Assembly: GCA_028289585.1 (NCBI GenBank)
Contig: JANQPI010000026.1
Coordinates: 1 to 64,000, forward strand
Direction: 5' to 3'
Source: Candidatus Zixiibacteriota bacterium
GTDB lineage: Bacteria > Zixibacteria > MSB-5A5 > GN15 > FEB-12
DNA: 64,000 nucleotides
Each line of letters starts with the position of its first letter. Positions within the stretch are counted from its first letter, which is position 1. The position numbers were made by a program, and so were the translations under genes. Below the pieces are notes generated by a model. That model was given only the letters and a program-made list of their open reading frames with translations, was not told where the DNA came from and made no database searches. This document shows positions 20,458 through 38,062 of this stretch, in pieces.

Positions 20458-22736
20458 AATGCTGACCTCGCGATTGTGGCAACCAGTTGACCGTAAGCCA
20501 GGCCACCATCGTTGGGCGGTACGGCGCGATGCTGCAGCACCGCAAACGACTGTTTGCTCAGTTGGCCAACAAGCCGAGCGACAAGCAGCCGGTTCATCAT
20601 CACGCCACCACTCAGTGCAATCGTGGAGAGGCCGGTCGCGGAGCGAGCCGCTGTTGCCGCGCTCACCACCAGCGTGGCGAACCGGTCATGCCACCACCGG
20701 GCCAGTTGGGATCGATCTTCGCCTCGACGATAACGACTCACCAGCTCAGCAACCAAGGGCCGCCAGTCAATCTCTCCTGTCACAGCCGCTGACGAAGATT
20801 CCTCAGCGGTGGGAGTACCTGCCATAGCCAACTGCTCGAGCTCGATCGCCGCCTGAGCATCGTAGGTGGTTCGTGTTCGTCCCGTGAGTAAGACACCAAT
20901 GGCATCCCACAGGCGACCGGTGCTCGACGTACGGATCGGATAGCGTATCTGCGGTATCATATCATGGAGTTGGCGGGCGGCGTTACGCACAGCAGCAGGG
21001 AAAAGCTCGGCGTTGTAACAATCGGCCTCGTGCAATACCGAGACGAGCATTCGCCACGGTTCCACGATCGCCGTTTCCCCTCCCGGGAGCATGAACGGCC
21101 GAAGCCAACCAACGCGCGTCGAATCGGCACTATCGCCGCACAGCAGTTCTCCGCCCCAGATGGTACCATCGGTTCCCCATCCTGTCCCGTCAAGCATGAG
21201 GCCCAATGCCCGGTCACGGTATCCGTGTTCTGCGAGAACTCCTGCAAAGTGGGCATGATGGTGCTGAACGCGCTCAATTGGTAGCCCGGACTGCTCGGCC
21301 CAGCGGGTCGATGCATAGTCGGGATGCAGATCACACGCGACGGCGGCGGGAGTCACATTTAGGAGCTTGCCAAAGTCACCAATCGTCTCGTCGAACCATC
21401 TTCGAGCTGCCGGATGGTCAAGGTCACCCAGGTGTGTCGAAAGGTATGCCTGGTCATTGATGGCAAACGCGATTGTCGACTTCTGCTGCCCACCAACCGC
21501 CAATCTGGGAACGTCGGTAGCTGTCGGCAGCGACACACGTTGCGGCACCGAACCGCGGGCACGACGGACCACAACCGTCGGAGCGCCGACATGCGCTGCC
21601 AGAACGATACCATCATCGCAGCGACGGCGAATTTGTCGATTATGAAGCAGCAAGCAGTCGGCAATAGCACCGAGTGCTTCGCGTGCCTCGTCGTTCGTAG
21701 CGCAGATTGGGGCACCGGCCGGATTGCCTGAGGTCATTACGAGTGCTCGACCACAATCGTGCAGCAACAAATGATGCAACGGCGTGTAGGCAATCATGAT
21801 TCCCACCGTATCATGACCTGGTGCCACCGATCGTGCCAGACAGTTGTCTGCGCGGGTCGGGACAACCACAATGGGCCGCGATGAGTCGAGCAACGCCGAC
21901 GCTGCGGCGTCGTTGATGTCGGCTAAGTGGCGAGCCGCTTCAAGGGACGGAACCATGATTGCCAACGGTTTGTCAGGGCGCCGTTTGCGCTGCCGAAGCC
22001 GCATCACAGCATCGTTGTTGGTAGCATCGCAGGCGAGATGAAATCCGCCCAGCCCTTTTACTGCCAGTATCTTTCCCGCCAGTACCAGTTGAGCGGCGTG
22101 ATTGACCACATCAATCGTGTCGGTGGTCGGTTCCTCGTCACCCTCCAGCCAAGCGGCTGGACCACACGCCGGGCAGGCCGTCGGTTGGGCATGGTAGCGG
22201 CGATCGCTTGGGGACTTGTATTCGTTGCGGCACTGTGAGCAGAGCTCAAACGAAGACATAACAGTCGATGTACGGTCGTACGGCATGTGATCAATGATCG
22301 AATAGCGCGGACCGCAGTTCGTGCAGTTCAAAAACGGGTAACGGTAGCGGCGATCGCTCGGATCGAATAACTCGGCCAGGCACGCGTCGCAGATCGGCAG
22401 ATCAACCGATGGTCGAATCGTCACCACGGATGCACGGTTCGATGCTTCGATCGTGAACGACTCGGCTCTGGTTGCTAATGTGCTTTCGACCTCGAAGGAG
22501 TCGATGCGGCTAAGCGGTGGTGCTTCGCGAGGTAGACGGTCGATGAACGACGCCGTTGCCGTGGGCTCTCCTTCGATACGGATTTCAACGCCAGTACATC
22601 CGTTGCGCACCGAACCGGTGACATGACAATCAGTGGCTAACCGCCACACGAATGGTCGGAAGCCCACTCCCTGCACGATACCACGCACGGTGAGTAGGTA
22701 CGCTGTAGGTGTCGCTGTCGTCGTTGCTTCGGTCAC
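20448..22736 (-). CDS. hypF: Carbamoyltransferase HypF
   Basis: Acylphosphatase-like GIVQGVGFRPFVWRLA; zinc fingers CDACLAELFD..CTNCGPRYS, CSQCRNEY..CPACGP; YrdC-like and Kae1-like domains (VQHHHAHFAGVLAEHG). Confidence 0.95.
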   Translation of the reverse strand: MTEATTTATPTAYLLTVRGIVQGVGFRPFVWRLATDCHVTGSVRNGCTGVEIRIEGEPTATASFIDRLPREAPPLSRIDSFEVESTLATRAESFTIEASNRASVVTIRPSVDLPICDACLAELFDPSDRRYRYPFLNCTNCGPRYSIIDHMPYDRTSTVMSSFELCSQCRNEYKSPSDRRYHAQPTACPACGPAAWLEGDEEPTTDTIDVVNHAAQLVLAGKILAVKGLGGFHLACDATNNDAVMRLRQRKRRPDKPLAIMVPSLEAARHLADINDAAASALLDSSRPIVVVPTRADNCLARSVAPGHDTVGIMIAYTPLHHLLLHDCGRALVMTSGNPAGAPICATNDEAREALGAIADCLLLHNRQIRRRCDDGIVLAAHVGAPTVVVRRARGSVPQRVSLPTATDVPRLAVGGQQKSTIAFAINDQAYLSTHLGDLDHPAARRWFDETIGDFGKLLNVTPAAVACDLHPDYASTRWAEQSGLPIERVQHHHAHFAGVLAEHGYRDRALGLMLDGTGWGTDGTIWGGELLCGDSADSTRVGWLRPFMLPGGETAIVEPWRMLVSVLHEADCYNAELFPAAVRNAARQLHDMIPQIRYPIRTSSTGRLWDAIGVLLTGRTRTTYDAQAAIELEQLAMAGTPTAEESSSAAVTGEIDWRPLVAELVSRYRRGEDRSQLARWWHDRFATLVVSAATAARSATGLSTIALSGGVMMNRLLVARLVGQLSKQSFAVLQHRAVPPNDGGLAYGQLVATIARSALCV

Positions 22737-23413
22737 GGTGCTATCGAGCGTTCCCGTGTCATCGCCTTCAGGGCGTGCAGGTGGTCGACGACACCATCAA
22801 TGCCTGCCCCGGTTCGCCCGGATGTTTGCACGATGTCGATTTTCGGATTAACAGTGTGGGCATTGGCAATCAGTGTGTCGATGTCGACATCGCAATAGGG
22901 CACGAGATCAGTTTTCGTGACCACCATGAGACGGGAGCGGGTAAAGATGCCCGGATACTTGAGCGGTTTATCCTCGCCCTCGGTCACACTCACCAGGACG
23001 ATCTTTTGATGTTCACCCAGATCCCAATTCGACGGGCACACGAGGTTGCCGACGTTTTCAATGATCAGGAAATCTGGATTCGGTGTTGGCGCGTTGACAA
23101 GTGCTTCCTCCACGAAGCGGGCATCGAGGTGACATCGGCCATGTGTCACGATCGGCAGCGCGCAACTCCCTGCTGCAGCGCGAATTCGTTCGGCGTCGTT
23201 TTCCGTCTGACAATCTGCTGCAAGAACCAAGACGGAATGTGACTGCTGCAGTTTCGGCACCAGGCGCTCAAGCAGACGCGTTTTGCCTGACCCCGGGGAC
23301 GAGATCAGGTTGACAACAGTCGTGCCAGCTTCATCCCAACGATGACGTAAACGAGCCGCAATATCGTTGTTTTCTGACATTACCACTTTGCGAATCGCGA
23401 CAGTTGTACTCAT
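22733..23413 (-). CDS. hypB: Hydrogenase nickel incorporation GTPase HypB
   Basis: NLISSPGSGKTRLLERL P-loop, DFLIIENVGNLVCP, VVTKTDLVPY. Confidence 0.95.
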   Translation of the reverse strand: MSTTVAIRKVVMSENNDIAARLRHRWDEAGTTVVNLISSPGSGKTRLLERLVPKLQQSHSVLVLAADCQTENDAERIRAAAGSCALPIVTHGRCHLDARFVEEALVNAPTPNPDFLIIENVGNLVCPSNWDLGEHQKIVLVSVTEGEDKPLKYPGIFTRSRLMVVTKTDLVPYCDVDIDTLIANAHTVNPKIDIVQTSGRTGAGIDGVVDHLHALKAMTRERSIAP

Positions 23414-23417
23414 GGGA

Positions 23418-23765
23418 TTAGTCTCCAACGGTCATAGCGGTGATCGTTACTTCCGACGAGGCATCGACGCGCAGTCCACGCTTTCCACATCTCGGGCAAT
23501 CGAACCGCAATTCAGTAAGCTCTCCGTGCCAGACGCACGACGGACAGTGGGCCGTCGCCGGCTGATGCATGATTGCGAGATTGCACTGCTCGAAACCGGT
23601 GTAGAGCGATCGTGCGCCGCCAAACGCGAAGTCGAGTGCGGTTGGCTCGATGTCGCTCAGTAGCCCCACCGATACCGTCACCGACTCGACGACGGACCAA
23701 CCATGGAGCTTTGCTTCCCGGTCGGCGACCGTGAGGAGTTGCCGGGCTATCGAGAGCTCGTGCAT
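23418..23765 (-). CDS. hypA: Hydrogenase nickel metallochaperone HypA
   Basis: MHELSIARQLL; zinc site CPSC...CPRCG. Confidence 0.95.
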   Translation of the reverse strand: MHELSIARQLLTVADREAKLHGWSVVESVTVSVGLLSDIEPTALDFAFGGARSLYTGFEQCNLAIMHQPATAHCPSCVWHGELTELRFDCPRCGKRGLRVDASSEVTITAMTVGD

Positions 23766-23893
23766 GCCGATTCCTCGTTTAGGAGAGTCATTTAGTCTTC
23801 CTTAAGATACGCCAACATCCTCTTGGCCGGCAAGAGAATACCGCTATTTCTTTGTCTGCTTTTATTGTTTTAAGGGGGGAAACCAGACCGATT

Positions 23894-23911
23894 TTGTGAA
23901 AAAAATCTCAA
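23894..23911. promoter_or_regulatory. Candidate CRP/FNR-superfamily site (TTGTGA-AAAAAA-TCTCAA)
   Basis: 6-6-6 dyad with one mismatch in the hypA/hydrogenase divergent intergenic region, close to TTGTGA-N6-TCACAA. Confidence 0.35.
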
Positions 23912-23917
23912 TACCCC

Positions 23918-25135
23918 TTGATCAAGCCGTCCCTGACTGCGATACTGAAAACAGCACTAAAAAGGTTGGGGGTTACCGTGGCGGATACGCATTCCGGATA
24001 CGCTCCACGCCGGATGGAGCGCGCCGAGCTTGGCCACTTGATTGATGTCCTTCAACGCGAAGGGCGCGAAGTGGTGGGGCCCATCTTCCGCAATCAGGCG
24101 ATCGATATCGGCCCGATTACTACTGAGGCCGACCTTCCGATCGGTTGTGTCGATGAGCAGGAGCGGGCGACCTACCGACTGACCCGCAACGGTTCAGCTC
24201 GGGTCTTTGGCTTCTCTGAACCGGCGGCCTCGTTCAAGCCGTACATCTTTCCGCAGCGACAACGCATTGCGGCGTTTCGTCGAGAAGGACGTGGATTTGT
24301 TGACGAGCATCACGAGGAGCCAATTCCTCGGCTCGCACTGTTCGGTGTTCGCGCGTGTGACCTCGCTGCGATTGCAATCCTGGACCGCATTTTGCTCGAA
24401 GGGCCGTATGTCGATGAATCGTATCGCCGCCGTCGCGAATCCTGTTTCATCGTGGCGGTCAACTGCGCGCAGCCGGGAGGGACCTGCTTCTGTGCATCGA
24501 CGCAGACCGGTCCCAATTGCACCTTCGGCTACGATCTGGTTCTGACCGAGCTCCATGCCAAAGGGAATCATCGATTCCTGATTGAAGCCGGTAGTCCCGA
24601 CGGATTGGAAATCCTGGAGCACCTGGAACTGTCTGAACCGACCGATGATGATATCGATTTCGCGCGGCGCCAGCGAGAGCATGCGGCCGATTCGATGGGT
24701 CGGGAGATGAACGTTCATGGTCTCACGGAACTCCTGAATGACAATACGCAACACTCACGCTGGGACGATGTTGCGAGTCGCTGTTTCAACTGCACCAACT
24801 GTACGCTTGTCTGTCCGACCTGTTTCTGTGCTACGATCGAAGATACAACTTCGTTCGATGGCAAGCAGGCGGAGCGGTGGAAGCGGTGGGACTCCTGCTT
24901 CACCCTCGACCATTCCTATGTCCACGGCGGCGCGGTACGGGTTTCCAGCCGAGCTCGGTATCGTCAGTGGCTTACGCACAAGTTCGGCACCTGGAAAGAG
25001 CAATTCGGGATGCTTGGTTGCGTCGGCTGCGGTCGCTGCATCACCTGGTGTCCCGCCGGAATTGACGTGGTCGAGGAGATTGAGGCGATCCGCGGGAGTG
25101 ATGAGAAGGTAAGAGAGGAGGTCGATCATGGTTAG
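23918..25135 (+). CDS. Group 3b NiFe hydrogenase (sulfhydrogenase) beta subunit, 4Fe-4S protein
   Basis: [16 protein letters not shown] and [27 protein letters not shown]. Start uncertain (TTG 23918 or GTG 23978). Confidence 0.88.
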
Positions 25136-25595
25136 TGATCTGGGCCCGTATTTGGCAGAGCACCCGATTCTCGAAGGGATGCGGCCCGAGCATATCCAGC
25201 TGATGGTTGGTTGTGCCGAAAACGTTCGTTTTCACCCCGAGGAGTATCTGTTCCGCGAAGGGGAAAAATCTGATCGGTTCTATTTCCTGCGTCACGGCAA
25301 GGTGAGTCTGGAGTTGTACCACCCCAAAGGGGGCGGTGCGATGGTGGTGCAGACGCTCGGTGAGGGAGACGTTATCGGCTGGAGTTGGTTGTTTCCTCCG
25401 CACTACCGGAATCTCGACGGCCGCGCTACCGAATTGGTCCGTGCGATTGCGCTCGACGGTGCCTGCCTTCGCGGAAAGTGTGAGGCGGATCACGAACTCG
25501 GCTATGAGATCATGAAGCGATTCGCGCACCTCATGGAAAAAGAACTTCAGGCAATGCAGCTGCGGCTCCTGGACATGTATGCACCAACTCACTGA
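25128..25595 (+). CDS. Cyclic-nucleotide-binding-domain-only protein
   Basis: FHPEEYLFREGEKSDRFYFLRHGKVSLEL...GEGDVIGWSWLFPP; ends after the dimerisation-type helix with no HTH; overlaps genes on both sides. Confidence 0.85.
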   Translation: MVSDLGPYLAEHPILEGMRPEHIQLMVGCAENVRFHPEEYLFREGEKSDRFYFLRHGKVSLELYHPKGGGAMVVQTLGEGDVIGWSWLFPPHYRNLDGRATELVRAIALDGACLRGKCEADHELGYEIMKRFAHLMEKELQAMQLRLLDMYAPTH

Positions 25596-26445
25596 GCCTG
25601 CCGTTGACGTGGCGCCGTCACCGGATGTCATGCTGCCACACCGGTTTCGGATCGACAAGTATCGGAAAGATACCGCTGATACGTTCACGGTTGATTTGGT
25701 GCCGGTCAATCCGGATCAGCCGTTCATGTATCAGCCGGGCCAGTTTAACATGATCTACATCTTCGGGGTCGGCGAGGCACCGATCTCGATCTCCGGCGAT
25801 CCGGCCACGGCACCCAAGCTGGTGCACACAACCCGTGTCGTCGGCACGGTCACCACGGCAATGAGGGGATTGGGCGTCGGTCACGAGCTCGGAATCCGGG
25901 GACCATTTGGGCGGCCCTGGCCAACCGATCATGCGCGTGGACACGACGTTGTTCTGGTTGCCGGTGGTATCGGTCTCGCGCCATTGCGACCTGTCCTCTA
26001 CCATGTGCTGGCGAATCGCTCCGACTACGGCAAACTTGTGCTGCTCTACGGCACGCGCACACCGGCCGACATTCTCTATCAACGCGAACTCCAACAGTGG
26101 CGGTCGCGACTCGATATGGAAGTCTTTGTGACGGTCGATCGCGCGACGCCCGGGTGGCGGGGCAATGTCGATGTTGTCACGACCCTCATTCCCAAGGCGC
26201 CGTTCGACCCCTTGAACACGGTGGCGATGATCTGCGGTCCGGAGATCATGATGCGGTTTGCCGCTATCGGTTTGCTCAAGCGCGGTGTCCCGGCCAATCA
26301 CCTTTATGTCTCACTCGAACGGAACATGAAGTGCGCGGTCGGTTTCTGTGGCCATTGCCAGCTGTCACGTGAATTTGTCTGTCGCGATGGTCCGGTCTTC
26401 CCGTACGATCGTGTTCGTGACCTCATGATGACTCGGGAGCTGTAG
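25579..26445 (+). CDS. Group 3b NiFe hydrogenase gamma subunit, FAD/NAD(P)-binding oxidoreductase
   Basis: Ferredoxin reductase fold: QPGQFNMIYIFGVGEAPISISGD, VVLVAGGIGLAPLRPV, C-terminal MKCAVGFCGHCQ 2Fe-2S motif. Confidence 0.9.
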   Translation: MHQLTEPAVDVAPSPDVMLPHRFRIDKYRKDTADTFTVDLVPVNPDQPFMYQPGQFNMIYIFGVGEAPISISGDPATAPKLVHTTRVVGTVTTAMRGLGVGHELGIRGPFGRPWPTDHARGHDVVLVAGGIGLAPLRPVLYHVLANRSDYGKLVLLYGTRTPADILYQRELQQWRSRLDMEVFVTVDRATPGWRGNVDVVTTLIPKAPFDPLNTVAMICGPEIMMRFAAIGLLKRGVPANHLYVSLERNMKCAVGFCGHCQLSREFVCRDGPVFPYDRVRDLMMTREL

Positions 26446-26448
26446 GAA

Positions 26449-27225
26449 ATGAAAGCGAAGCCGAAACTCGCTGTCTGGAAATTTGCTTCGTGTGATGGCT
26501 GTCAGTTGTCGTTGCTGGACTGCGAGGACGAGCTGCTGGCGGTCGCCGACGCCGTTCACATTGCCAACTTCCCGGAAGCATCACGCGCGGTTGTCAAAGG
26601 ACCGTACGACCTGTCGCTGGTTGAAGGTTCCATTACCACTGCTCATGATGCCGAGCGTATCCATAAGATCCGCCGGCAGAGCAAGACCGTGATAACGATT
26701 GGCGCCTGTGCTACGTCGGGTGGAATTCAAGCCTTAAAGAACTTCGCCGATCACACGGACTTGATTCGGACGGTTTACGCGCATCCGGAATACATCTCAA
26801 CCCTGCCGAATTCGACTCCGATTTCGGATCACATCTTTGTGGACTATGAGCTTCGCGGCTGTCCCATCAATAAGGAGCAGCTGCTTGAGGTGGTGAATGC
26901 CTTTCTCAATGGTCGCAAGCCGGCGATGCCCGAACATTCGGTCTGCCTCGACTGCAAACTCCAGGGCAATCTGTGTGTGATGGTTGCACATGGGACACCC
27001 TGTCTCGGCCCAGTGACTCATGCCGGCTGTGGTGCCCTCTGCCCATCATACAATCGCGGCTGCTACGGATGCTTCGGACCGAAAGAAAACGCTAACCCTC
27101 GGGCGTTGACGGTTCATCTGCAAGAGATGGGCGTGCAACGTGACGAATTGCTGCGCCTCTATCGCAGTTTCAATGCCTATCACAGCGAATTTCGAAAAGA
27201 GAGTGAACGCATTGAGCAAGAGTAA
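26449..27225 (+). CDS. Group 3b NiFe hydrogenase small (delta) subunit
   Basis: [40 protein letters not shown]-type and [25 protein letters not shown] cluster ligands. Confidence 0.93.
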
Positions 27226-28504
27226 GACCTACAAAGTAAACTACCTTGCCCGCGTTGAGGGTGAAGGCGGGCTTCAGGTACGCGTCAAAGACGGTACCGT
27301 GAGCGATGTTAAACTCAATATCTTCGAGCCACCTCGGTTCTTCGAAGGCTTCCTTGTTGGCCGTAACTTCATGGAAGTCCCAGACATCACAGCTCGAATC
27401 TGTGGCATCTGTCCGATCGCGTATCAGATGAGTTCGTGCCATGCCCTCGAGGAGGCGTGCGGGGTAACGGTCGACGGTCCGCTGCGGGAGCTACGTCGAC
27501 TCATCTACTGTGGAGAATGGATTGAAAGCCACGCCCTGCACATGTTTCTTCTCCACGCCCCGGACTTTCTCGGCTATCAGGATGCGATGGAGATGGCGGC
27601 CGACTATCCGGTCGAGGTCGAGGCGGCACTGAAGATCAAGAAGGCCGGTAACGACTTGATGTCATTTATCGGCGGCCGCGAAATTCATCCGATTAACGTC
27701 CGCGTTGGTGGTTTCTACAAAGTACCAACGCGTGCCGAACTTCGGGCCCGACGCCCGGAGCTCGAGGCTGCGCTGGAACTCATAGGGCCGGCCGTTGACT
27801 TTCTCAAAAAACTCCCGATTCCGGAGTTCGCTGTCGACTACGAGTATGTCAGCCTGCAACATCCTGATGAGTATCCGCTCAATGAGGGACGGGTCGTCAC
27901 GACCAGCGGTCTCGATATCCCGATTAGTGAATTTCCCACCCATTTCATCGAAGAACATGTCAAGCATTCGACCTCGTTGCATGGTCGGACGCGTGACGGG
28001 CGCTGGTATCATGTTGGTCCGCTCGCCCGCTTCGCTCATAACTTCGACCGACTCAGCGAGCCGGCCAAGGATGCTGCCAAAGCGTTCGGTCTGACACCCA
28101 CGATAACGAATCCGTTTTCGTCGATTCTGGTTCGAGCGGTCGAGCTGGTCTATGCCTTCCACGAGGCGTTGCGCATTATTGACAATTACGAGGAACCGGA
28201 ATGGCCGCACGTTGATGTTGTCCCGCGGACCGGTTCGGGAACGGGCTGCACAGAAGCGCCTCGTGGTCTTTGCTGGCACACGTATTCGATCGACGATGAC
28301 GGGCTTATCACCAAGGCTCGTATTGTCCCGCCAACGTCACAGAATCAGAAAACGATTGAGGAAGACCTCCGGCTCTTCGTACAGGATCATCTCGATTTAC
28401 CTGAAGACGATCTTGTCTGGCGGTGTGAGCAGGTCGTTCGGAACTATGATCCGTGTATCTCCTGTTCGTGTCACTTCCTCAAACTAGACATGATCTACGA
28501 ATGA
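27203..28504 (+). CDS. NiFe hydrogenase large (alpha) catalytic subunit
   Basis: [19 protein letters not shown] (L1) and [18 protein letters not shown] (L2 plus C-terminal extension). Start uncertain: GTG 27203 or TTG 27212; ORF track 27140. Confidence 0.93.
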
Positions 28505-29013
28505 CCGCGCCGACACTCGTGATCGGTATCGGCAACCCGTATCGCGGTGACGATGCAATCGGGTTATTGGTCATTGAGCGACTACGTGCAGACTATCGGG
28601 ATTCGGATCAGGTTCGGTTCCTGGCTGTCACCGCCGATGGTGCTGAGATACTCCATCAGTTACGCAACAGCCAACGGGTGGTTATTGTCGACGCGGTCGT
28701 CTCAGGTGCACGACCCGGGACGATTCACTGTCGTGACCTCGTGACCGAGCCATTGCCGCGTGATTGGAGTTGTTTTTCCTCACACGCGTTTGGGCTTCGC
28801 CAGGCGATCGAACTGGCCCGAACGACTGACACGCTATCGGAAAGATGTCAGTTTGTCGGGATTGAAGTGACGAATGTCGGTGTGGGGGCGGAGCTGTCCG
28901 ACGATATCGTCATCGCAATGGCATCGTTAGAACAAGCTGTGCAAGATGCGATTGCGACCGTCAGTGCTGACCGCGAACATATGCCGACCACGGTTCGATC
29001 GGAAGAGCTGTAG
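28501..29013 (+). CDS. Hydrogenase maturation endopeptidase (HycI/HoxW-type)
   Basis: [45 protein letters not shown] overlap with large subunit. Confidence 0.92.
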
Positions 29014-32000
29014 GATCACGACGCGCCAGCGCCTCGGCCAGCCGCTCCGCCATCTGCAGATTGGTAATCAACGGAACGTTGTAATCAATCGCCGCTCGCC
29101 GAATCATATACCCGTTGGTGAGTTCAACACGGCGATTGTCTTTGGGAATATTGACCACCAGATCGATTTTTCCGTCCCGGATATAGTCGATCGCCGAGAG
29201 TAGCTCGTTGTCGAGCGGCCAGGCAACCGTTTCGATATCGAGCCCTTCTTTGCGCAGGAACTTCGCGGTCCCCGTTGTCCCGTAGAGTTTGATGCCAATC
29301 GAGGCCAGCAGTTGCGCACCGGAGAGGAAAGCCGCCTTGCTGGCGACCGGACCTGTTGACAGCAGGATCGACGCGATCGGAAAACGGAAACCGACCGCCA
29401 TCAGTGCTTTCAGAAACGCCTCATCAAAATCGTACCCGAGGCAGGCTACCTCGCCGGTCGACGCCATTTCCACGCCAAGCGTTGGATCGGCCCCATCGAG
29501 GCGACTAAACGAGAACTCCGGCGCCTTGACACCAACATAATCGAGTTCCAGGTACCGATGCGGCTCTACCGGGTCGATCGGTCGACCCATCATGACCCGA
29601 GTCGCCAAGTCGATGAAGTTCGTCTTGAGAACTTTCGAGACGAATGGCAGCGACCGTGCTGCGCGCAGATTGCATTCGATAACCATCACACGATTGTCGC
29701 GGGCGAGGAACTGAATGTTAAAGGGGCCATTGATATGCAGCGCCGCGGCAATCTCTCCGGCAACGCGACGGACTTGGCGCATCGTTTCGAGATAGGTTCG
29801 TTGCGGCGGCAACACCAGCGTAGCATCGCCCGAATGGACGCCGGCGTTTTCTACGTGCTCGGATACGGCGAGACAGACGAGCTCGCCGTCGCGAGCAACC
29901 GCGTCGATATCGATCTCTTTTGCGCCCTGAATGAACTTGCTGACCACGACTGGATGCTCGGGTGAGACGTCGGTCGCCTTGGCTAAAAACGTCTCGAGCT
30001 CAGCATCGTTCGCGGCTACAGCCATCGCAGCTCCTGATAAAACATACGATGGCCGGACGATAACCGGGTAGCCAACCGATCGCGCGAATGAGTAGATGGC
30101 GTCGAGATTGGTCAACTCCTGCCATGGTGGTTGAGGCAGGTCGAGTGATTCCAGAAGTTGTGAGAAGCGATGGCGGTTTTCGGCGCGATCGATCGATTCC
30201 GATGCGGTGCCCAGTACGCGGTACCCCGAATCGGCACAGCGGGTAGCCAGCGAGTTCGGCACCTGTCCGCCTACTGACAGAATAAGCCCCAGCGGATTTT
30301 CGAGACGATAGATTTCCGACACGGTTTCGAATGACAGTTCCTCGAAATAGAGTCGGTGGCACTCGTCGTAATCGGTCGATACCGTCTCCGGATTATGGTT
30401 CACCATGATTGTTCGGTAACCGAGCGACCGCAGTGTGCGGACACAGTTAACACAGCACCAGTCGAACTCGACCGAACTACCGATGCGATAGGCGCCGGGA
30501 CCGAGGATCATAACCGCTCCTGCCTCGGTGATGTCGATATCGTCAAACGCTCCGTTGTACGTGAGGTAGAGATAGTTCGTGCGCGCCGGAAACTCGGCCG
30601 CGAGCGTGTCGATCTGTTTGACGATCGGACGAATACCGAGATTACGTCGACGTCTGGTCACAGACGATTCATCGCACCCGATCAGAGCTGCAATCTGTTC
30701 GTCGGCGAAACCGCGCTGCTTGGCCGCACGCAGGTCATCTGCGGAGAGAGAATCAAGATCAGATGTGGCGATGTCCTGGGATTGCCGCACAATCGCGTCG
30801 AGCTTGAACAGGAACCACCGGTCAATATGCGAGATCGCGTGCACCTGTTCGACTGACCAACCGGCAGCAAAGGCATCGGCAAGGGCGAAGATGCGCTCAT
30901 CGGTTGGTTCGGCAATCGCCCGGGTGAGGTCATCCCATTGTCGGGAGCGATTTCCGGTGAGGCCACGGGCTCCGGTCGCCAGCATCCGCAACGCCTTTTG
31001 CAGTGCCTCCTCAAACGTTCGTCCAATTGCCATAACCTCACCGACCGACTTCATTGCGGAACCGATCTGCTGAGTTACGCCGGGAAACTTCTTGAGGTCC
31101 CAGCGCGGGGCTTTAACGACAACATAATCCAGGGCCGGTTCAAAACAGGCTTGGGTGACACCCGTGACGGCATTGACAATATCCGGCAATGCTTTCCCCA
31201 GGGCGAGCTTGGCAGCGACAAACGCGAGCGGGTAGCCGGTAGCCTTTGAGGCTAGCGCCGACGAACGCGACAGGCGCGCATTGACCTCGATGACCCGGTA
31301 GTCATCGCTGCTTGGGGAAAGGGCGTACTGAATGTTGCACTCACCGACAATCCCCAGATGTCGTACGACTCGCAGGGCAACATCACGAAGCTTCTGATAC
31401 TCATGATTGGTCAACGTCTGACTCGGCGCGACAACGATACTTTCGCCGGTATGGATACCCATCGGGTCGAGGTTTTCCATATTGCAGACCGCGACGCAGT
31501 TATCGTGGCGATCCCGAACGACCTCGTACTCGATTTCCTTCCATCCTTCAAGATACTCCTCGACGAGCACCTGGCTGGTATGTGCAAACGCTCGCTGCGC
31601 AAGGTCGCGCAGTTCGGTACGGTTGCGACAGATGCCTGAGCCAAGACCGCCCAGGGCGTACGCAACCCGAGCCATGCACGGGTAGCCGAGTTGTTCGCCG
31701 GCAGCAACCGCGGCATCGACCGAATCGACCGCGACCGAGCGTGCGGTGTGAACGTCGATCTCTGTTAAACGGGCAATGAATCGGTCTCGATCCTCGGTAT
31801 CGATCACCGATTCGATGGGCGAGCCGAGGATCCGTACGCTCAATCGCTCAAACACTCCCTGATGAAACAACGTAACACCACAGTTCAGAGCGGTCTGGCC
31901 ACCGAAGCTCAAGACGATCGCATCCGGTCGCTCGCGTTCAATCACCCGTGTTACGAAAGCGGGTGTGACCGGAACGAAGTAAACTTCGTCCGCGAGCCCT

Positions 32001-32173
32001 TCCGATGTCTGTATTGTGGCAACGTTCGGATTGATCAGGATTGTCCGGATGCCTTCCTCGCGAAATGCTTTGATCGCCTGGCTACCCGAATAGTCGAACT
32101 CGCCGGCCTCACCGATCTTGAGAGCAGCCGAGCCGAGGATCAACACGGATCGAGGTTGGGTGGTCGTCGACAT
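28961..32173 (-). CDS. carB: Carbamoyl-phosphate synthase large subunit
   Basis: 1070 aa, two ATP-grasp halves; SVLILGSAALKIGEAGEFDYSGSQAIKA ... EHVENAGVHSGDATLVLPPQ. Confidence 0.96.
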   Translation of the reverse strand: MSTTTQPRSVLILGSAALKIGEAGEFDYSGSQAIKAFREEGIRTILINPNVATIQTSEGLADEVYFVPVTPAFVTRVIERERPDAIVLSFGGQTALNCGVTLFHQGVFERLSVRILGSPIESVIDTEDRDRFIARLTEIDVHTARSVAVDSVDAAVAAGEQLGYPCMARVAYALGGLGSGICRNRTELRDLAQRAFAHTSQVLVEEYLEGWKEIEYEVVRDRHDNCVAVCNMENLDPMGIHTGESIVVAPSQTLTNHEYQKLRDVALRVVRHLGIVGECNIQYALSPSSDDYRVIEVNARLSRSSALASKATGYPLAFVAAKLALGKALPDIVNAVTGVTQACFEPALDYVVVKAPRWDLKKFPGVTQQIGSAMKSVGEVMAIGRTFEEALQKALRMLATGARGLTGNRSRQWDDLTRAIAEPTDERIFALADAFAAGWSVEQVHAISHIDRWFLFKLDAIVRQSQDIATSDLDSLSADDLRAAKQRGFADEQIAALIGCDESSVTRRRRNLGIRPIVKQIDTLAAEFPARTNYLYLTYNGAFDDIDITEAGAVMILGPGAYRIGSSVEFDWCCVNCVRTLRSLGYRTIMVNHNPETVSTDYDECHRLYFEELSFETVSEIYRLENPLGLILSVGGQVPNSLATRCADSGYRVLGTASESIDRAENRHRFSQLLESLDLPQPPWQELTNLDAIYSFARSVGYPVIVRPSYVLSGAAMAVAANDAELETFLAKATDVSPEHPVVVSKFIQGAKEIDIDAVARDGELVCLAVSEHVENAGVHSGDATLVLPPQRTYLETMRQVRRVAGEIAAALHINGPFNIQFLARDNRVMVIECNLRAARSLPFVSKVLKTNFIDLATRVMMGRPIDPVEPHRYLELDYVGVKAPEFSFSRLDGADPTLGVEMASTGEVACLGYDFDEAFLKALMAVGFRFPIASILLSTGPVASKAAFLSGAQLLASIGIKLYGTTGTAKFLRKEGLDIETVAWPLDNELLSAIDYIRDGKIDLVVNIPKDNRRVELTNGYMIRRAAIDYNVPLITNLQMAERLAEALARRDPTALPIEPWSAYVRGQH

Positions 32174-33288
32174 CAGGTCTCGCGTCCCTCCCGAAGCTGC
32201 GTCTCGAATCGATCAAAAAGCCAATTTGTGTCATTCGGTCCGGGGGTCGCTTCCGGGTGAAACTGCACGGCGGAGAGTGGTCGGGAGTGATGCCGGATAC
32301 CCGCGACCGTCTGGTCATTGGCATTCTCGAACCATACCTGCCAGTCATCCGGAAGGGAATCACGTCGAACGGCGTACCCGTGATTCTGTGACGTCAGATA
32401 ACATCGCGTACCGATTGTGCCTGATTCATCGCCGAGCAGATCTCGGCACGGTTGATTGTGGGAACGATGACCGAATTTGAGTTTGTAGGTCGATGCGCCA
32501 ATGGCCAGCGACAGCACCTGAATGCCCATGCAGATACCAAAGATCGGTACCGATAGCGCGAGAGCGTGTTTGATATGGTTGACCGTTGTAGTCAGCGTCT
32601 GCGGGTCACCCGGACCATTGGAGATAACGATGCCGTCAAAGGTATCGTTCAGGAAGTAGTGATCGTGTGGGACGCGTCGAACGTTGATTCCACGACGAAG
32701 GAGCGATCGAATGATGTTGGCTTTTACACCACAGTCGATCAGGACAACCGTCGGACCGGTTTCATCCACTCGGTAGTCCTGTGGCTCGGTGCAACAGACT
32801 TCGACCGCGAGATTACGCGCGTTGGGATCGACAAAAGTTGGCTCGCCCGGTCCCGCAATGAGTTTCCCCAGCATACTACCTTTGTCTCGAAGCAGTTTGG
32901 TTAGCGCGCGCGTGTCGACTCCCGCAAGACCGGGAATACCTTGGCCGTGAAGCCATTCATCCAGCGTTCTCGTCGAACTATGGTGACTCGGCTGCTTGCA
33001 GAGATCGGTGATGACGAGTCCCGCTGCCTGAATGCGTTCCGACTCGAAGTACCGCGGCAACCCCAGGTCATCCAGTTCGTCGCCGGGAACACCGTAGTTA
33101 CCGACGAGTGGATACGTACAGACGAGGATCTGCCCGCGGTACGACGGATCGGTTAATGCTTCCGGATACCCGACCATGCCGGTCGTGAAGACAACTTCAC
33201 CGGCGATTGCTTCCGAGGCACCGAACGGTTGTCCGCGGAGTTCAGAGCCGTCTTCCAGTACGAGGCGAGCTGCATCAAATCCACTCAT
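32173..33288 (-). CDS. carA: Carbamoyl-phosphate synthase small subunit (glutamine amidotransferase)
   Basis: LVLEDGSELRGQPFGASEAIAGEVVFTTGMVGYPEALTDPSYRGQIL; GATase PIFGICMGIQVLSLAIGAST. Confidence 0.95.
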   Translation of the reverse strand: MSGFDAARLVLEDGSELRGQPFGASEAIAGEVVFTTGMVGYPEALTDPSYRGQILVCTYPLVGNYGVPGDELDDLGLPRYFESERIQAAGLVITDLCKQPSHHSSTRTLDEWLHGQGIPGLAGVDTRALTKLLRDKGSMLGKLIAGPGEPTFVDPNARNLAVEVCCTEPQDYRVDETGPTVVLIDCGVKANIIRSLLRRGINVRRVPHDHYFLNDTFDGIVISNGPGDPQTLTTTVNHIKHALALSVPIFGICMGIQVLSLAIGASTYKLKFGHRSHNQPCRDLLGDESGTIGTRCYLTSQNHGYAVRRDSLPDDWQVWFENANDQTVAGIRHHSRPLSAVQFHPEATPGPNDTNWLFDRFETQLREGRET

Positions 33289-33416
33289 CGTGCATCTTCC
33301 GGATTCGTCATAGCCGCAGTCGTTAGGGGGCGCGGAAACCAAACGACGGTGGTCAGCAGCCGATACCAAGATGTGATGAGCGAGGTGACTTGGATACGCA
33401 AGTGCCCGGCAACTCC

Positions 33417-34265
33417 TTACAACGGAAACGAAAGTTGAATGATCGGTGCGGTTATCTCGGATTCCCGCACGATCGCGTTACTGTCATCAAAGGTGGCAAA
33501 CAACTCACCGACACCCCAGCCGGCGACCGCCCCGACAGCGACGTCAAGGAACCAGTGCTTGTTCGCATGGATTCGCGACAGACCGACATAACCCGCCCAG
33601 CCGTAGAGAACAACCGGAGCAACCCAGCCCCACGTGTCGAATTCGCTGCCTGAAAGTCGTGTTCGCATCACCGCTCGTGTCCTGATGTTGACCCAAGTGG
33701 CGGCGTAGAAGGCGCTCGACGTATGGCCCGAGTAGAACGATTCGCGCCAGTCGCCACGCTCCGGATCACCGGTGACACGAGCGGAGTCGGGGTAGAGATA
33801 GGCGAGTGGGCGTTGTCGACGGATCAGCTTTTTGGCCAGATCAGTCGCACCTTTCTGAGCCAACGCGCCGGTCCAGTAGAGAAACTGAGTCTGGCCAATA
33901 TCACGGCCGCGTTCTCCACGTGGCTCCATCGCATCGAGACTCGCCAGAGCTGCCGCATGAGCGATGATATTGATGAACGCGGCACTCGACGGATCCATGA
34001 AGTTGCGATACCCCGGTTTGGGGTCCGCTCCCAGCCAATCAGTCAACGACTGTTCGAAACCAAGTGGTTGCCGCCAATTTGGTCCCCGATCCTCCGTGGC
34101 GACATGTACCCACTGGCTAATACCAAACAGCGCAACGGTGCCGCCGGCGATGCCAGCGATTTCTCCGGCGTCAAGGTAATCTCGTTCCTGAGCGGGTGAC
34201 GAGTGGGCTGCGATCAAGAATGCCGAGACGACAATGATGCCAAGAAGTGATCGCAGATCAGTCAT
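33417..34265 (-). CDS. PAP2-family phosphatase with signal peptide/TM segments
   Basis: KKLIRRQRP, FYSGHTSSAF, SRIHANKHWFLD phosphatase motifs. Confidence 0.88.
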   Translation of the reverse strand: MTDLRSLLGIIVVSAFLIAAHSSPAQERDYLDAGEIAGIAGGTVALFGISQWVHVATEDRGPNWRQPLGFEQSLTDWLGADPKPGYRNFMDPSSAAFINIIAHAAALASLDAMEPRGERGRDIGQTQFLYWTGALAQKGATDLAKKLIRRQRPLAYLYPDSARVTGDPERGDWRESFYSGHTSSAFYAATWVNIRTRAVMRTRLSGSEFDTWGWVAPVVLYGWAGYVGLSRIHANKHWFLDVAVGAVAGWGVGELFATFDDSNAIVRESEITAPIIQLSFPL

Positions 34266-35967
34266 GGCGCTGCACGCCTACAAGCTGCCATTTATTGTCG
34301 TCATCGTGATACCACAACCAGAGATCAACGTGGTGGGTCGCCCAATTACTCTCCGATCGTTCCGTTGTCAGTCGCAGGCGGAAGAGCGGTGATGCATCGG
34401 GATTGGTGCGTTTTGCGTCCCACGCTGTTTGCATGGCCGATACCGTTTCTGAGGGGACCGTGATCTGCTGTTCACGTGTCCGGGGGAGCACTGTGATTAT
34501 GTTTCCGTCGAAACGGACTTCACCGCGAGTCTCGCCGCTTGTAACCAAACCCCAGTCCTGGAGCAAGTCATCCCACGATACAACCAACGAGCCGTTGCCG
34601 TCGTCGCTTATCGCAAAGCGGTCAAGCGTACTTGTGGCTCCCAAGTAGGCGCGACCGATCTTGTCGCGTCGCTCGCGGAGAATACGAAGCATCTCGGTGC
34701 GTACTTCCGGCCGCGTGAAATAGGCGGCATCTACCAATGCCTCCAGATCGTCATCCCGAAATGCCATGACGAGTTTGGCTCCCCAGAAGGCGTCCCGATG
34801 GGTCATGTTTTCAAACGGCGGAATCGGGTATCCGGGTTTCCAGCGTTTCGGATTGAACTGCTCACTCTCAAAGTAGCCAATCTCTGGGTATGTGATCGGG
34901 CCAATCTTCTCCCAGGGCCAGACATACAGTCCCAGGGACAGGCTCGTGAGAAAGATGTCTTTCAGGTCGAAGTAGTTATGGTAGCCGCGACGTCGTCCAT
35001 ACGGTCGATCAGATACGGTTCCCATAACCGTACCAAAATCGAGTAGATAGTGTCGCACATACCCGGTGTCATCGTTGCCTACGAATGAGTTGATCGTGTT
35101 GGCGTCTTTGATGTCCCAGTGATTGAGCCAAGCGCAGAGAATTTTAAGCGCTCGAATCTCCCGTCGGTTCTCCGCCGGACACCAGTCATTCGGATCATCG
35201 GACCGTGTCCCGGTGAACGACCACGGTCCCATGACGTTGGGAATCAGCTTCGATGCCAGCACGCGATAGTAGCCATCGGAGCTCGCTTGAACACGAGCCA
35301 GGATGCCGTCAAGCGTCTCCGTCGTGAACAGTACGCGTTCCCCGTCAACTTTGTACGTCAGCCCCTCTTTAATCTCAAGCGAGTCGCGGTGGAAGTACGA
35401 GATATGCTCCTCCGCCACGAAGTACCCGGCGGCATGAAAGACGCGTCCGGCAATGGCGGCGGCACCGGTCGCAAGCTCGGGAAAACCAATACGATCAAAC
35501 TTTAGAATGTACGTATCACCCTTCGGGTCGGTGATCCAGAAGCCGGGGGTGACACCGCCCACTTTTGGGCGCGAGACAACCCACGTACCGGTCGTATCAG
35601 GCGGAGCCGTGCCGGCACCGGACATCATCTTCTTGCGGGAGAGGGGAGTAAAGTAATGGCGATTGGTGAACCACGATGAGTTCGGGACCTCGTCGTAGCT
35701 GTTGATGTTCCACGATTCCTGCCGATTGCCGAAAATGATGCGCGTCGAACGATCGACATCGAGCAACTGCTGGATCTGATTAAACGTCCCGCGGCGCACA
35801 GCATCCCACGCGATACTCTCCGACGACTCCTCAGGCTTCGGAATGGGGCGGGCATCATTGTCACGCCAGTGTGGGTCTTCGGGGGTCAGCTTCGGGGCCG
35901 ACGATCCGCATCCGATGAAGAGAGCCATCACGGTGGTGATGCTGAGCGTTACCCAGAGCCGGTTCAT
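34258..35967 (-). CDS. Predicted lipoprotein with protein-kinase-like motifs
   Basis: Lipobox LFIGC (Cys20); YILKFD (K156 codon 35500-35502); PELATGAAAIAGRVF; AWLNHWDIKDAN (HxDxKxxN, 35098-35121); YLLDFG (35032-35040). Confidence 0.6.
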   Translation of the reverse strand: MNRLWVTLSITTVMALFIGCGSSAPKLTPEDPHWRDNDARPIPKPEESSESIAWDAVRRGTFNQIQQLLDVDRSTRIIFGNRQESWNINSYDEVPNSSWFTNRHYFTPLSRKKMMSGAGTAPPDTTGTWVVSRPKVGGVTPGFWITDPKGDTYILKFDRIGFPELATGAAAIAGRVFHAAGYFVAEEHISYFHRDSLEIKEGLTYKVDGERVLFTTETLDGILARVQASSDGYYRVLASKLIPNVMGPWSFTGTRSDDPNDWCPAENRREIRALKILCAWLNHWDIKDANTINSFVGNDDTGYVRHYLLDFGTVMGTVSDRPYGRRRGYHNYFDLKDIFLTSLSLGLYVWPWEKIGPITYPEIGYFESEQFNPKRWKPGYPIPPFENMTHRDAFWGAKLVMAFRDDDLEALVDAAYFTRPEVRTEMLRILRERRDKIGRAYLGATSTLDRFAISDDGNGSLVVSWDDLLQDWGLVTSGETRGEVRFDGNIITVLPRTREQQITVPSETVSAMQTAWDAKRTNPDASPLFRLRLTTERSESNWATHHVDLWLWYHDDDNKWQLVGVQRHD

Positions 35968-37289
35968 AGGCCCGCACCAAGTTGAAATGCGAAGCGTGTC
36001 GTCTCTTGGGATGTTGATATGCGCATCGTCGCGATGACACCATCAGCACCCCACAACCGAATACCGCCCCCCCAGGAGAATCGCCAGTTGCGCCAACTGA
36101 AGTCATTGGTGAACGAACTGAACACTCGACCCTGCTCATAGAAGAGAAAGCCATCAAGGATATCCCAGATCGGATAGCTGTATTCGATCAGCCCACGGAG
36201 GGATTCCTTATCGATAAAGCGTTCCGGTTCATAGCCGTACAATCCGGCATTGCCGCCCAACGACGATTCCAGGTAAAATGGTGGTTCCTCATTCTCTGTT
36301 GGGTCGACCACATCGATCGAGTTTGCCTCGACAAGGAGCGTGAAAACCCGCTCGCGGAAGAACTGTATCCGCTGGTATAGCTCTACGTGGGTCCGGAAGT
36401 ACTGTAGGTTATCCGACCGTGCGACACCCTGATGGTATAGCGTCTGGGCTCGGATCTGACCACCGGTCGTAGGCCGGAACGGCTGGTTCTCCCAGTTGAG
36501 TTGCAACCCAAGTCCACCGAAGAGGTAGCGAGTCGAGGCAATGTCCTCGGTGGCCAGACCGAACGTATCGATGATTGCATCCAGGTCAGAAACGAAGTCA
36601 TCGTCTTCGCCATCGCCGAGATTGTGCGCGGCGTAGCCGGCGTTGCCTAAAACTGTTAACGATTGGCTGAGGACAAACCGGGCATCGGCTTCCAGCGTTG
36701 TCGTTTCCAGCGTAAAGTTAACCTCATCCCGCTGCTGGGAACCATTACCAATTCCGAAGAACGGCTCACGAGTGTTCTTTGTGTACCGTCCGGAGATGAC
36801 CAACTGAAACGGCTGCCGGTTACGTCTGCCAAATGAGGCTTCAGCCAGAACCGATGCATAGTTGTACTGGGAATACGAACCGGCCAGGCGCCATTCGTCA
36901 CCTGACGTAGCGATATCTCTCAGCCGGAACCCCAAACCGCCGGCGAACCCCTCTCGACCTGAATACGAGATGATTGGAACGACGGGGAGAGTGGGATCAA
37001 GAATACCCTCAATGATCTGTTTGCCAAACTGTTGTTCGTAGCCAAGCCAGACGAGACCATAGGTCGCCTGTTCCAGCACCCAGAAGGGTGCGTAGAGGAT
37101 GGTTGATGGAACTCGGGCAAGTTTGGTAGAGAGGGGAAGCTCCGGGGGGCGAGGATCCCGCGTCCGGGTTGTATCGATGTCATAGGCCTCAGCACCTATG
37201 ACACCAACAGTCACTATGCTAAGACACGCTACTGCAACGTATCGCGAAAGGCTCCGGAAGGTGAGTCGGTTCGATCGATGAATCCCCAT
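35964..37289 (-). CDS. Outer-membrane beta-barrel, BamA/TamA (D15) family-like, without obvious POTRA domains
   Basis: N-terminal signal-like segment, FFGIGNGSQQRDEVNF, C-terminal FLFYEQGRVFSSFTNDFSWRNWRFSWGGGIRLWG...FAFQLGAGL. Confidence 0.75.
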   Translation of the reverse strand: MGIHRSNRLTFRSLSRYVAVACLSIVTVGVIGAEAYDIDTTRTRDPRPPELPLSTKLARVPSTILYAPFWVLEQATYGLVWLGYEQQFGKQIIEGILDPTLPVVPIISYSGREGFAGGLGFRLRDIATSGDEWRLAGSYSQYNYASVLAEASFGRRNRQPFQLVISGRYTKNTREPFFGIGNGSQQRDEVNFTLETTTLEADARFVLSQSLTVLGNAGYAAHNLGDGEDDDFVSDLDAIIDTFGLATEDIASTRYLFGGLGLQLNWENQPFRPTTGGQIRAQTLYHQGVARSDNLQYFRTHVELYQRIQFFRERVFTLLVEANSIDVVDPTENEEPPFYLESSLGGNAGLYGYEPERFIDKESLRGLIEYSYPIWDILDGFLFYEQGRVFSSFTNDFSWRNWRFSWGGGIRLWGADGVIATMRISTSQETTRFAFQLGAGL

Positions 37290-38062
37290 GAGGCGAGCTT
37301 TTCGCGCGCTTTCTCCTTGATATGTGTATCCTCAACCAGGCCGTGGACCGGCCGAGGGAAGTCAACGACACTTTGCAGAAGGGCGCAAGCTCGCTCTTTC
37401 TCATCTTGATCCCAGAGAAATTCAGCGAGGAAGCGGCGATTATAGAGATTATCGGGGAACTGTGCGAAGGCGCGCTCATAGTATGCGCGCGCCTTCTTCT
37501 TCGACGGCCAGCCCATCAACAACGGTATCTTGGGTGTCCGGGCGTGCACGCCACCCAGGACTCGCCAGCCTCCCCCATCCGCGAACGTTGAATCGAGGTA
37601 GGCCGCTCGTTCGGAGTGGCGACGGATTTTTTTGGGAACGCCACGCCCGAGAATGTCACTCTTACGATGGAATTCAGTCCACATCGCCCAGTTTATTGCC
37701 AGCCAGAGATGCACGCCCGCCTCATCAGGATAGCGTTTAGCCAGCATATCACCGACCGCCACGCCGCGATCATATGCCGATTGTCGGGCATCATCGGTCG
37801 CCGACGCATAGTAACCGCGGAATACGATTGCCCGGAGATACTTCCACGCAATTTCCGGCTGCCGGTCACTCGGACAGAGCACGAGCGCTCGGGCGTAGAC
37901 GGTAATCGCTTCATCGATAATCATGGAGTCCGCGAGAAGCTGCTCACGATCGAAATCGATATGGCGCTGCTCGAAGAGAACGTCAGCCTCCGCCAGACAG
38001 GTGCAAGGCTCCGCTAGTGGCGCTGCGAGCGTAAAGCCAATCAGGAGCAGACTAAGTGTCAT
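37229..38062 (-). CDS. Exported TPR-like protein (TatT-component-like)
   Basis: Signal peptide MTLSLLLIGFTLAAPLAEPC; helical repeats; GGWRVLGGVHARTPKIPLLMGWPSKKKARAYYERAFAQFPDNLYNRRFLAEFL. Start at ATG 38062 more likely than 38236. Confidence 0.65.
   Translation of the reverse strand: MTLSLLLIGFTLAAPLAEPCTCLAEADVLFEQRHIDFDREQLLADSMIIDEAITVYARALVLCPSDRQPEIAWKYLRAIVFRGYYASATDDARQSAYDRGVAVGDMLAKRYPDEAGVHLWLAINWAMWTEFHRKSDILGRGVPKKIRRHSERAAYLDSTFADGGGWRVLGGVHARTPKIPLLMGWPSKKKARAYYERAFAQFPDNLYNRRFLAEFLWDQDEKERACALLQSVVDFPRPVHGLVEDTHIKEKAREKLASWGFIDRTDSPSGAFRDTLQ

Follow-up and report, generated by a model that had tools for sequence, protein, structure and literature searches.

A lipoprotein family of predicted kinase fold is associated with NTT ATP/ADP translocases in Zixibacteria

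Genomes of the phylum Zixibacteria with an intact gene for a lipoprotein of predicted protein-kinase-like fold nearly always carry NTT ATP/ADP translocase genes (PF03219) as well (31/33, against 3 of about 100 genomes without it). This association is the larger finding of the analysis and goes beyond the first-pass annotation of the locus, in which a coupled operon for a TPR protein, a D15-like barrel, a kinase-like lipoprotein and a PAP2 phosphatase was taken to suggest an envelope phosphorylation or phospholipid-head-group system. That annotation was made on the window, the whole stretch of 64,000 nucleotides analyzed here, from a Candidatus Zixiibacteriota bacterium. The co-occurrence suggests where an extracytoplasmic enzyme could obtain its ATP. 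The best reading, to which we give an even chance of being right, is that the lipoprotein is an envelope phosphotransferase using ATP from an NTT, with the PAP2 protein or a calcineurin-like phosphatase as its counterpart.

The operon and its conserved core

All four reading frames are open, with overlaps of 61, 4 and 8 nt as claimed earlier; the one of 61 nt, between the TPR and barrel genes, hinges on the start codon picked for the latter. The features of the locus are as follows.

34258..35967, minus strand: kinase-fold lipoprotein, 569 aa, the central gene (fold model, PDB matches, conservation in 37 family members)
35964..37289, minus strand: Omp85-like outer-membrane barrel, 441 aa, constant partner of the kinase gene (profiles; position upstream of the kinase gene in most loci)
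33417..34265, minus strand: exported PAP2 phosphatase, 282 aa, motifs intact (PF01569 and motifs; near the kinase gene in most loci)
37229..38062, minus strand: TPR protein, 277 aa, overlapping the barrel gene, outside the conserved unit (TPR_14, 3.1e-7; weak TAtT/BstC)
35908..35910, minus strand: lipobox cysteine C20 (Cys in 34/34 sequences having the region)
34630..35640, minus strand: kinase-like domain, about residues 110-446 (secondary structure and PDB fold matches)
35500..35502, minus strand: K156, predicted ATP-binding lysine of strand 3 (conserved in 33/34; model strand 126-131 in core numbering)
35098..35115, minus strand: D285-x-K287-x-x-N290, predicted catalytic loop (conserved in 35/37, 34/37 and 37/37, respectively)
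35032..35040, minus strand: D310-F-G, predicted metal-binding motif (D 35/37, F 37/37, G 34/37)
34261..34629, minus strand: C-terminal FN3-like domain, residues 447-569 (FN3-type structures among the fold matches of the full-length model)

Profile searches agreed with the identities proposed for the three partners. The TPR protein matches TPR models, and TAtT/BstC weakly. The D15-like barrel is Omp85-like, in such a way that the copy in the window gives a weak match (NF047779 of NCBIfam, 1.5e-7, well below its cut-off) and a relative matches PF01103 at 5.5e-17. The PAP2 protein matches PF01569 of Pfam at 4.2e-16, and its KX6RP, SGH and SRX5HX3D motifs are intact. The PAP2 proteins of the window and its relatives often end in a Phe-tipped alternating pattern (for example ISFSF), resembling the strand that closes an outer-membrane barrel, and have few hydrophobic helices.

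The window was then compared with 36 other loci carrying the kinase gene. A gene for an Omp85-like barrel lies directly upstream of the kinase gene in most of them, usually within 12 nt or overlapping, and a PAP2 gene is found within a few genes of the kinase in most loci. The four-gene unit proposed at first thus holds in part: the barrel-kinase pair is a conserved core and PAP2 is usually present, but the TPR gene lacks homologues in the neighborhood of the other family members and, being seen in this window only among the 37 loci compared, was rejected as a core part.

An additional exported protein of around 430 aa, without a Pfam family, follows the kinase gene in many relatives (e.g., L027:6930-8201 and L025:6352-7650), where it sits between the kinase and PAP2 genes and shows an invariant SGHYFYSN near its C-terminus. 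It was not found in the genome of the window, and in three families (f15-f17) it is replaced by a calcineurin-like phosphatase with a lipoprotein-like N-terminus. Its N-terminal part shows a similarity of borderline significance to RelA/SpoT synthetases (YwaC, 0.0025; PF04607, 0.008, for a single member; hhalign E-value 0.0015 with a probability of 17%), and the glutamate of the EIQIRT motif is apparently absent, so a RelA/SpoT-like nature is only a lead.

Regarding the surroundings, promoter and terminator scans of the locus gave sites at chance level only, and Rfam gave no match. A plasmid location of the system was rejected, and so was an anti-phage defence system after a search with defence models. 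Genes that by eye look like carA and carB follow the operon on the same strand (window 28961-33369), the first of them starting, at its longest reading, no more than about 50 nt from the PAP2 gene. A cNMP-binding gene at 25128-25595 is similar to those found beside NTT-HEAT genes in other genomes; it was rejected as a part of the system because its neighbors (22733-29013) look, by eye, like a [NiFe] hydrogenase cluster.

Predicted kinase fold of the lipoprotein

The lipoprotein has no Pfam, NCBIfam or significant PDB sequence match, either singly or as a profile, and sequence similarity to any solved kinase was rejected after sequence and profile searches. It is therefore an orphan by sequence, but not by structure. 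An AlphaFold2 model of its core (residues 27-446), built on an alignment of 34 sequences, reached a pLDDT of 87.1 and a pTM of 0.88, and nearly all of its top 50 PDB fold matches were kinases, including PI4KII-alpha, Fam20C/A, HipT, RIO2, an aminoglycoside phosphotransferase and PI3K. The best of these were PI4KII-alpha (1e-4) and Fam20 with Mn/ADP (4e-4, prob 1.00). As the TM-scores are modest (0.25-0.40 against known kinases, and about 0.2-0.4 among the fold matches), the protein would represent a divergent branch of the kinase fold, nearest to the Fam20/PI4KII/HipA side. Fam20 was also among the best matches of the full-length model, together with FN3-type structures, which we assign, on the basis of the model, to the C-terminal 123 residues.

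The motifs read earlier from the translation, LFIGC (C20), YILKFD (K156), PELATG (E164), HWDIKDAN (D285, K287, N290) and DFG (D310), are present with the spacing described. They fall in kinase order along the predicted fold: K156 is part of the third strand of the N-lobe and E164 opens the helix that follows, D285-N290 lie between a helix and a pair of strands, and D310 comes directly behind this pair. A non-kinase fold or a lack of conservation in homologues had been named as the outcomes that would speak against the kinase interpretation, and neither appeared: the structure is predicted to be kinase-like, and the motif residues are near-invariant among the 37 family members (window included, sequences without the region being left out of each count), as given in the list above and, for E164, in 32/34. 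This near-invariance argues that the motifs are not there by chance. In overall fold and in its conserved, correctly ordered Lys, Glu, catalytic Asp/Asn and DFG Asp, the protein agrees with the protein-kinase-like superfamily, so that the kinase interpretation is supported at the level of the predicted fold. The N-terminal signal, with its lipobox cysteine at the aligned position in every sequence having the region, identifies a lipoprotein, which probably sits at the outer membrane or the surface, as judged from the barrel partner only.

The family was detected in 37 of 133 genomes of the phylum, remnants and degenerate copies included, and in one pattern scan its named relatives were nearly all Candidatus Zixiibacteriota assemblies. 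Three homologues of a single family (L084-L086) have lost K287, with a threonine in its place, and carry DFD or GFD instead of DFG; they look degenerate and, from these replacements, may be pseudokinases.

As to the substrate, it is possible, though we hold this only tentatively, that an active envelope kinase acts on a lipid or a glycan and not on protein, in a phosphorylation cycle with PAP2. PAP2 enzymes commonly act on lipid phosphates, and both the best fold match, a lipid kinase, and the frequent presence of a PAP2 neighbor are in line with this, but the Fam20 protein kinases match about equally well, and at some loci the phosphatase in the operon is the calcineurin-like one, which is not lipid-specific.

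Association with NTT translocases

Across the phylum, 31 genomes have both an intact kinase gene and NTT genes, 2 have the kinase only, 3 have NTT only and about 97 have neither (Fisher p 1.6e-24, a value that ignores shared ancestry), the last count being approximate since the searches drew 133 and 130 genomes. No such link with NTT was found for CotH (p 0.33) or HipA (p 0.59). NTT genes were not detected in G051 and G092, the two genomes with the kinase only, nor in the three genomes with degenerate kinases (L084-L086). Among the three NTT-only genomes, one has the partner and PAP2 genes beside NTT, and in another a barrel gene runs off the end of the contig. At one further locus (L087, G086:C45:50000-65000), only a remnant of the kinase gene is left, its C-terminal part with one stop, with a PAP2 gene near and NTT not detected, which looks like a joint decay of the system.

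Many kinase loci carry NTT genes, which come in two forms. The long one, NTT-HEAT, is accompanied by two-component genes and a cNMP-binding gene; the short one measures about 440-470 aa. In seven genomes the short NTT lies around 5-60 nt from the operon, in such a way that it is found upstream of the barrel gene in L026, L031 and L070, and after the phosphatase gene in L079-L081, with identical spacing in L082. Its profile matches the solved ADP,ATP carrier 1 (9j3n) at 2.5e-31, in agreement with an NTT carrier homolog, and the KR and K..K..D elements are retained, whereas the AELWGS segment lacks its glutamate. The genome of the window, with its NTT genes on other contigs, thus shows the co-occurrence as its relatives do, while physical linkage was observed in the relatives.

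It is unlikely that kinase and NTT are functionally uncoupled and coincide only through common descent or as members of a large set of accessory genes. All the genomes come from one phylum and the counts are not phylogeny-corrected; but within genera g30, g20 and g4 the kinase and NTT are jointly present or absent, which argues that the association is not only one of deep ancestry, and the position of the short NTT in the kinase operon, on either side in different families, and the negative CotH control also speak against it.

We consider it similarly improbable that the NTTs import nucleotides and that the kinase and phosphatases process nucleotides or sugar phosphates before uptake. The linked phosphatase genes are consistent with such scavenging, and the characterized NTTs of intracellular bacteria import nucleotides, ATP among them (PMC5381601), but the use of ATP outside by a kinase conflicts with scavenging it, and the lipid anchor and FN3-like domain suggest a macromolecular or envelope substrate. 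The transport mode of NTTs is not predictable from sequence (PMC6995639).

The recurrent block of NTT-HEAT, cNMP-binding and two-component genes beside the kinase, together with the degenerate motifs of one clade, would also suit a pseudokinase that binds ATP as a sensor and signals the presence of extracytoplasmic ATP or ADP to the linked two-component proteins. This is distinctly unlikely: conservation extends, beyond the ATP-binding Lys and DFG, to the catalytic Asp and Asn, for which a sensor would have no use, and phosphatase genes are found in the kinase's own unit. The long NTT-HEAT form may have other roles, since such proteins are described in PMC5381601 as widespread in bacteria, free-living ones included, with no known role.

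Proposed role and comparison with known systems

In the favored reading, the lipoprotein, with its protein-kinase-like fold, would be anchored to the outer membrane next to its Omp85-like partner and would transfer phosphate from ATP to an envelope substrate; NTT translocases would carry ATP out of the cytoplasm and ADP back in, and PAP2, or the calcineurin-like phosphatase in other families, would take the phosphate off again. The earlier idea of envelope phosphorylation thus keeps its kinase-like fold, catalytic residues, barrel pairing and PAP2, but loses the TPR gene, and it had overlooked the NTT translocases and the extra exported partner. As a broader and more speculative proposal, these genes could form a dedicated system for ATP-driven chemistry outside the cytoplasm, in which NTT exports ATP to the periplasm, where it would serve the lipoprotein kinase and, in many genomes, a second exported enzyme with the RelA/SpoT-like region. 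A eukaryotic analogue would be the ATP/ADP exchangers of the ER (SLC35B1/AXER), cited in PMC6995639.

If true, a dedicated ATP-export system would give a function to the NTT genes of some free-living bacteria. Bacteria are known to have enzymes for which nucleotides are needed outside the cytoplasm, namely CotH kinases and exported alarmone synthetases; how these are supplied is a question that PMC12691689 raises for the synthetases. A gene set that joins extracytoplasmic nucleotide use with the role of NTT-HEAT makes both questions directly testable.

The weak RelA/SpoT-like region of the 430-aa partner of relatives is shared with these exported alarmone synthetases (PMC12691689), although the similarity is borderline, the EIQIRT glutamate seems to be missing and the partner is absent from the window's genome. 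The long NTT form found here (about 930 aa, with a cNMP-binding gene after it) has the architecture described for NTT-HEAT in PMC5381601, where, in the part available, the function of the fusions is given as unknown and a tie to a kinase-fold lipoprotein was not found.

Among kinases, HipT (HipA family, PF07804) appears in the fold matches. HipA is cytoplasmic, and membership of the lipoprotein in this family was rejected, as HipA_C reached at best 0.011 in 2/34 members, below any cut-off, with no match in the window's genome (G000) and no relation in hhalign. CotH spore-coat kinases (PF08757) are likewise bacterial kinases that work outside the cytoplasm (PMC7821199), but they lack the co-occurrence with NTT; membership was rejected, PF08757 having no match to the lipoprotein family and hhalign showing no relation. 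PI4KII-alpha, of the PI4KII-alpha/PI3K-type lipid kinases, is the best single fold match; it is a cytosolic eukaryotic enzyme, in contrast to the lipoprotein, and sequence similarity between the two was not detected. Membership by sequence in Fam20 (PF06702) was rejected as well, since the profile matched nothing above its cut-off in 130 genomes of the phylum and gave no match in that of the window. The Fam20 kinases of the secretory pathway are nonetheless alike in kinase fold by structure match and in their action outside the cytoplasm, predicted for the lipoprotein, which differs from them in being bacterial and in combining an FN3-like tail with HxDxKxxN and DFG motifs.
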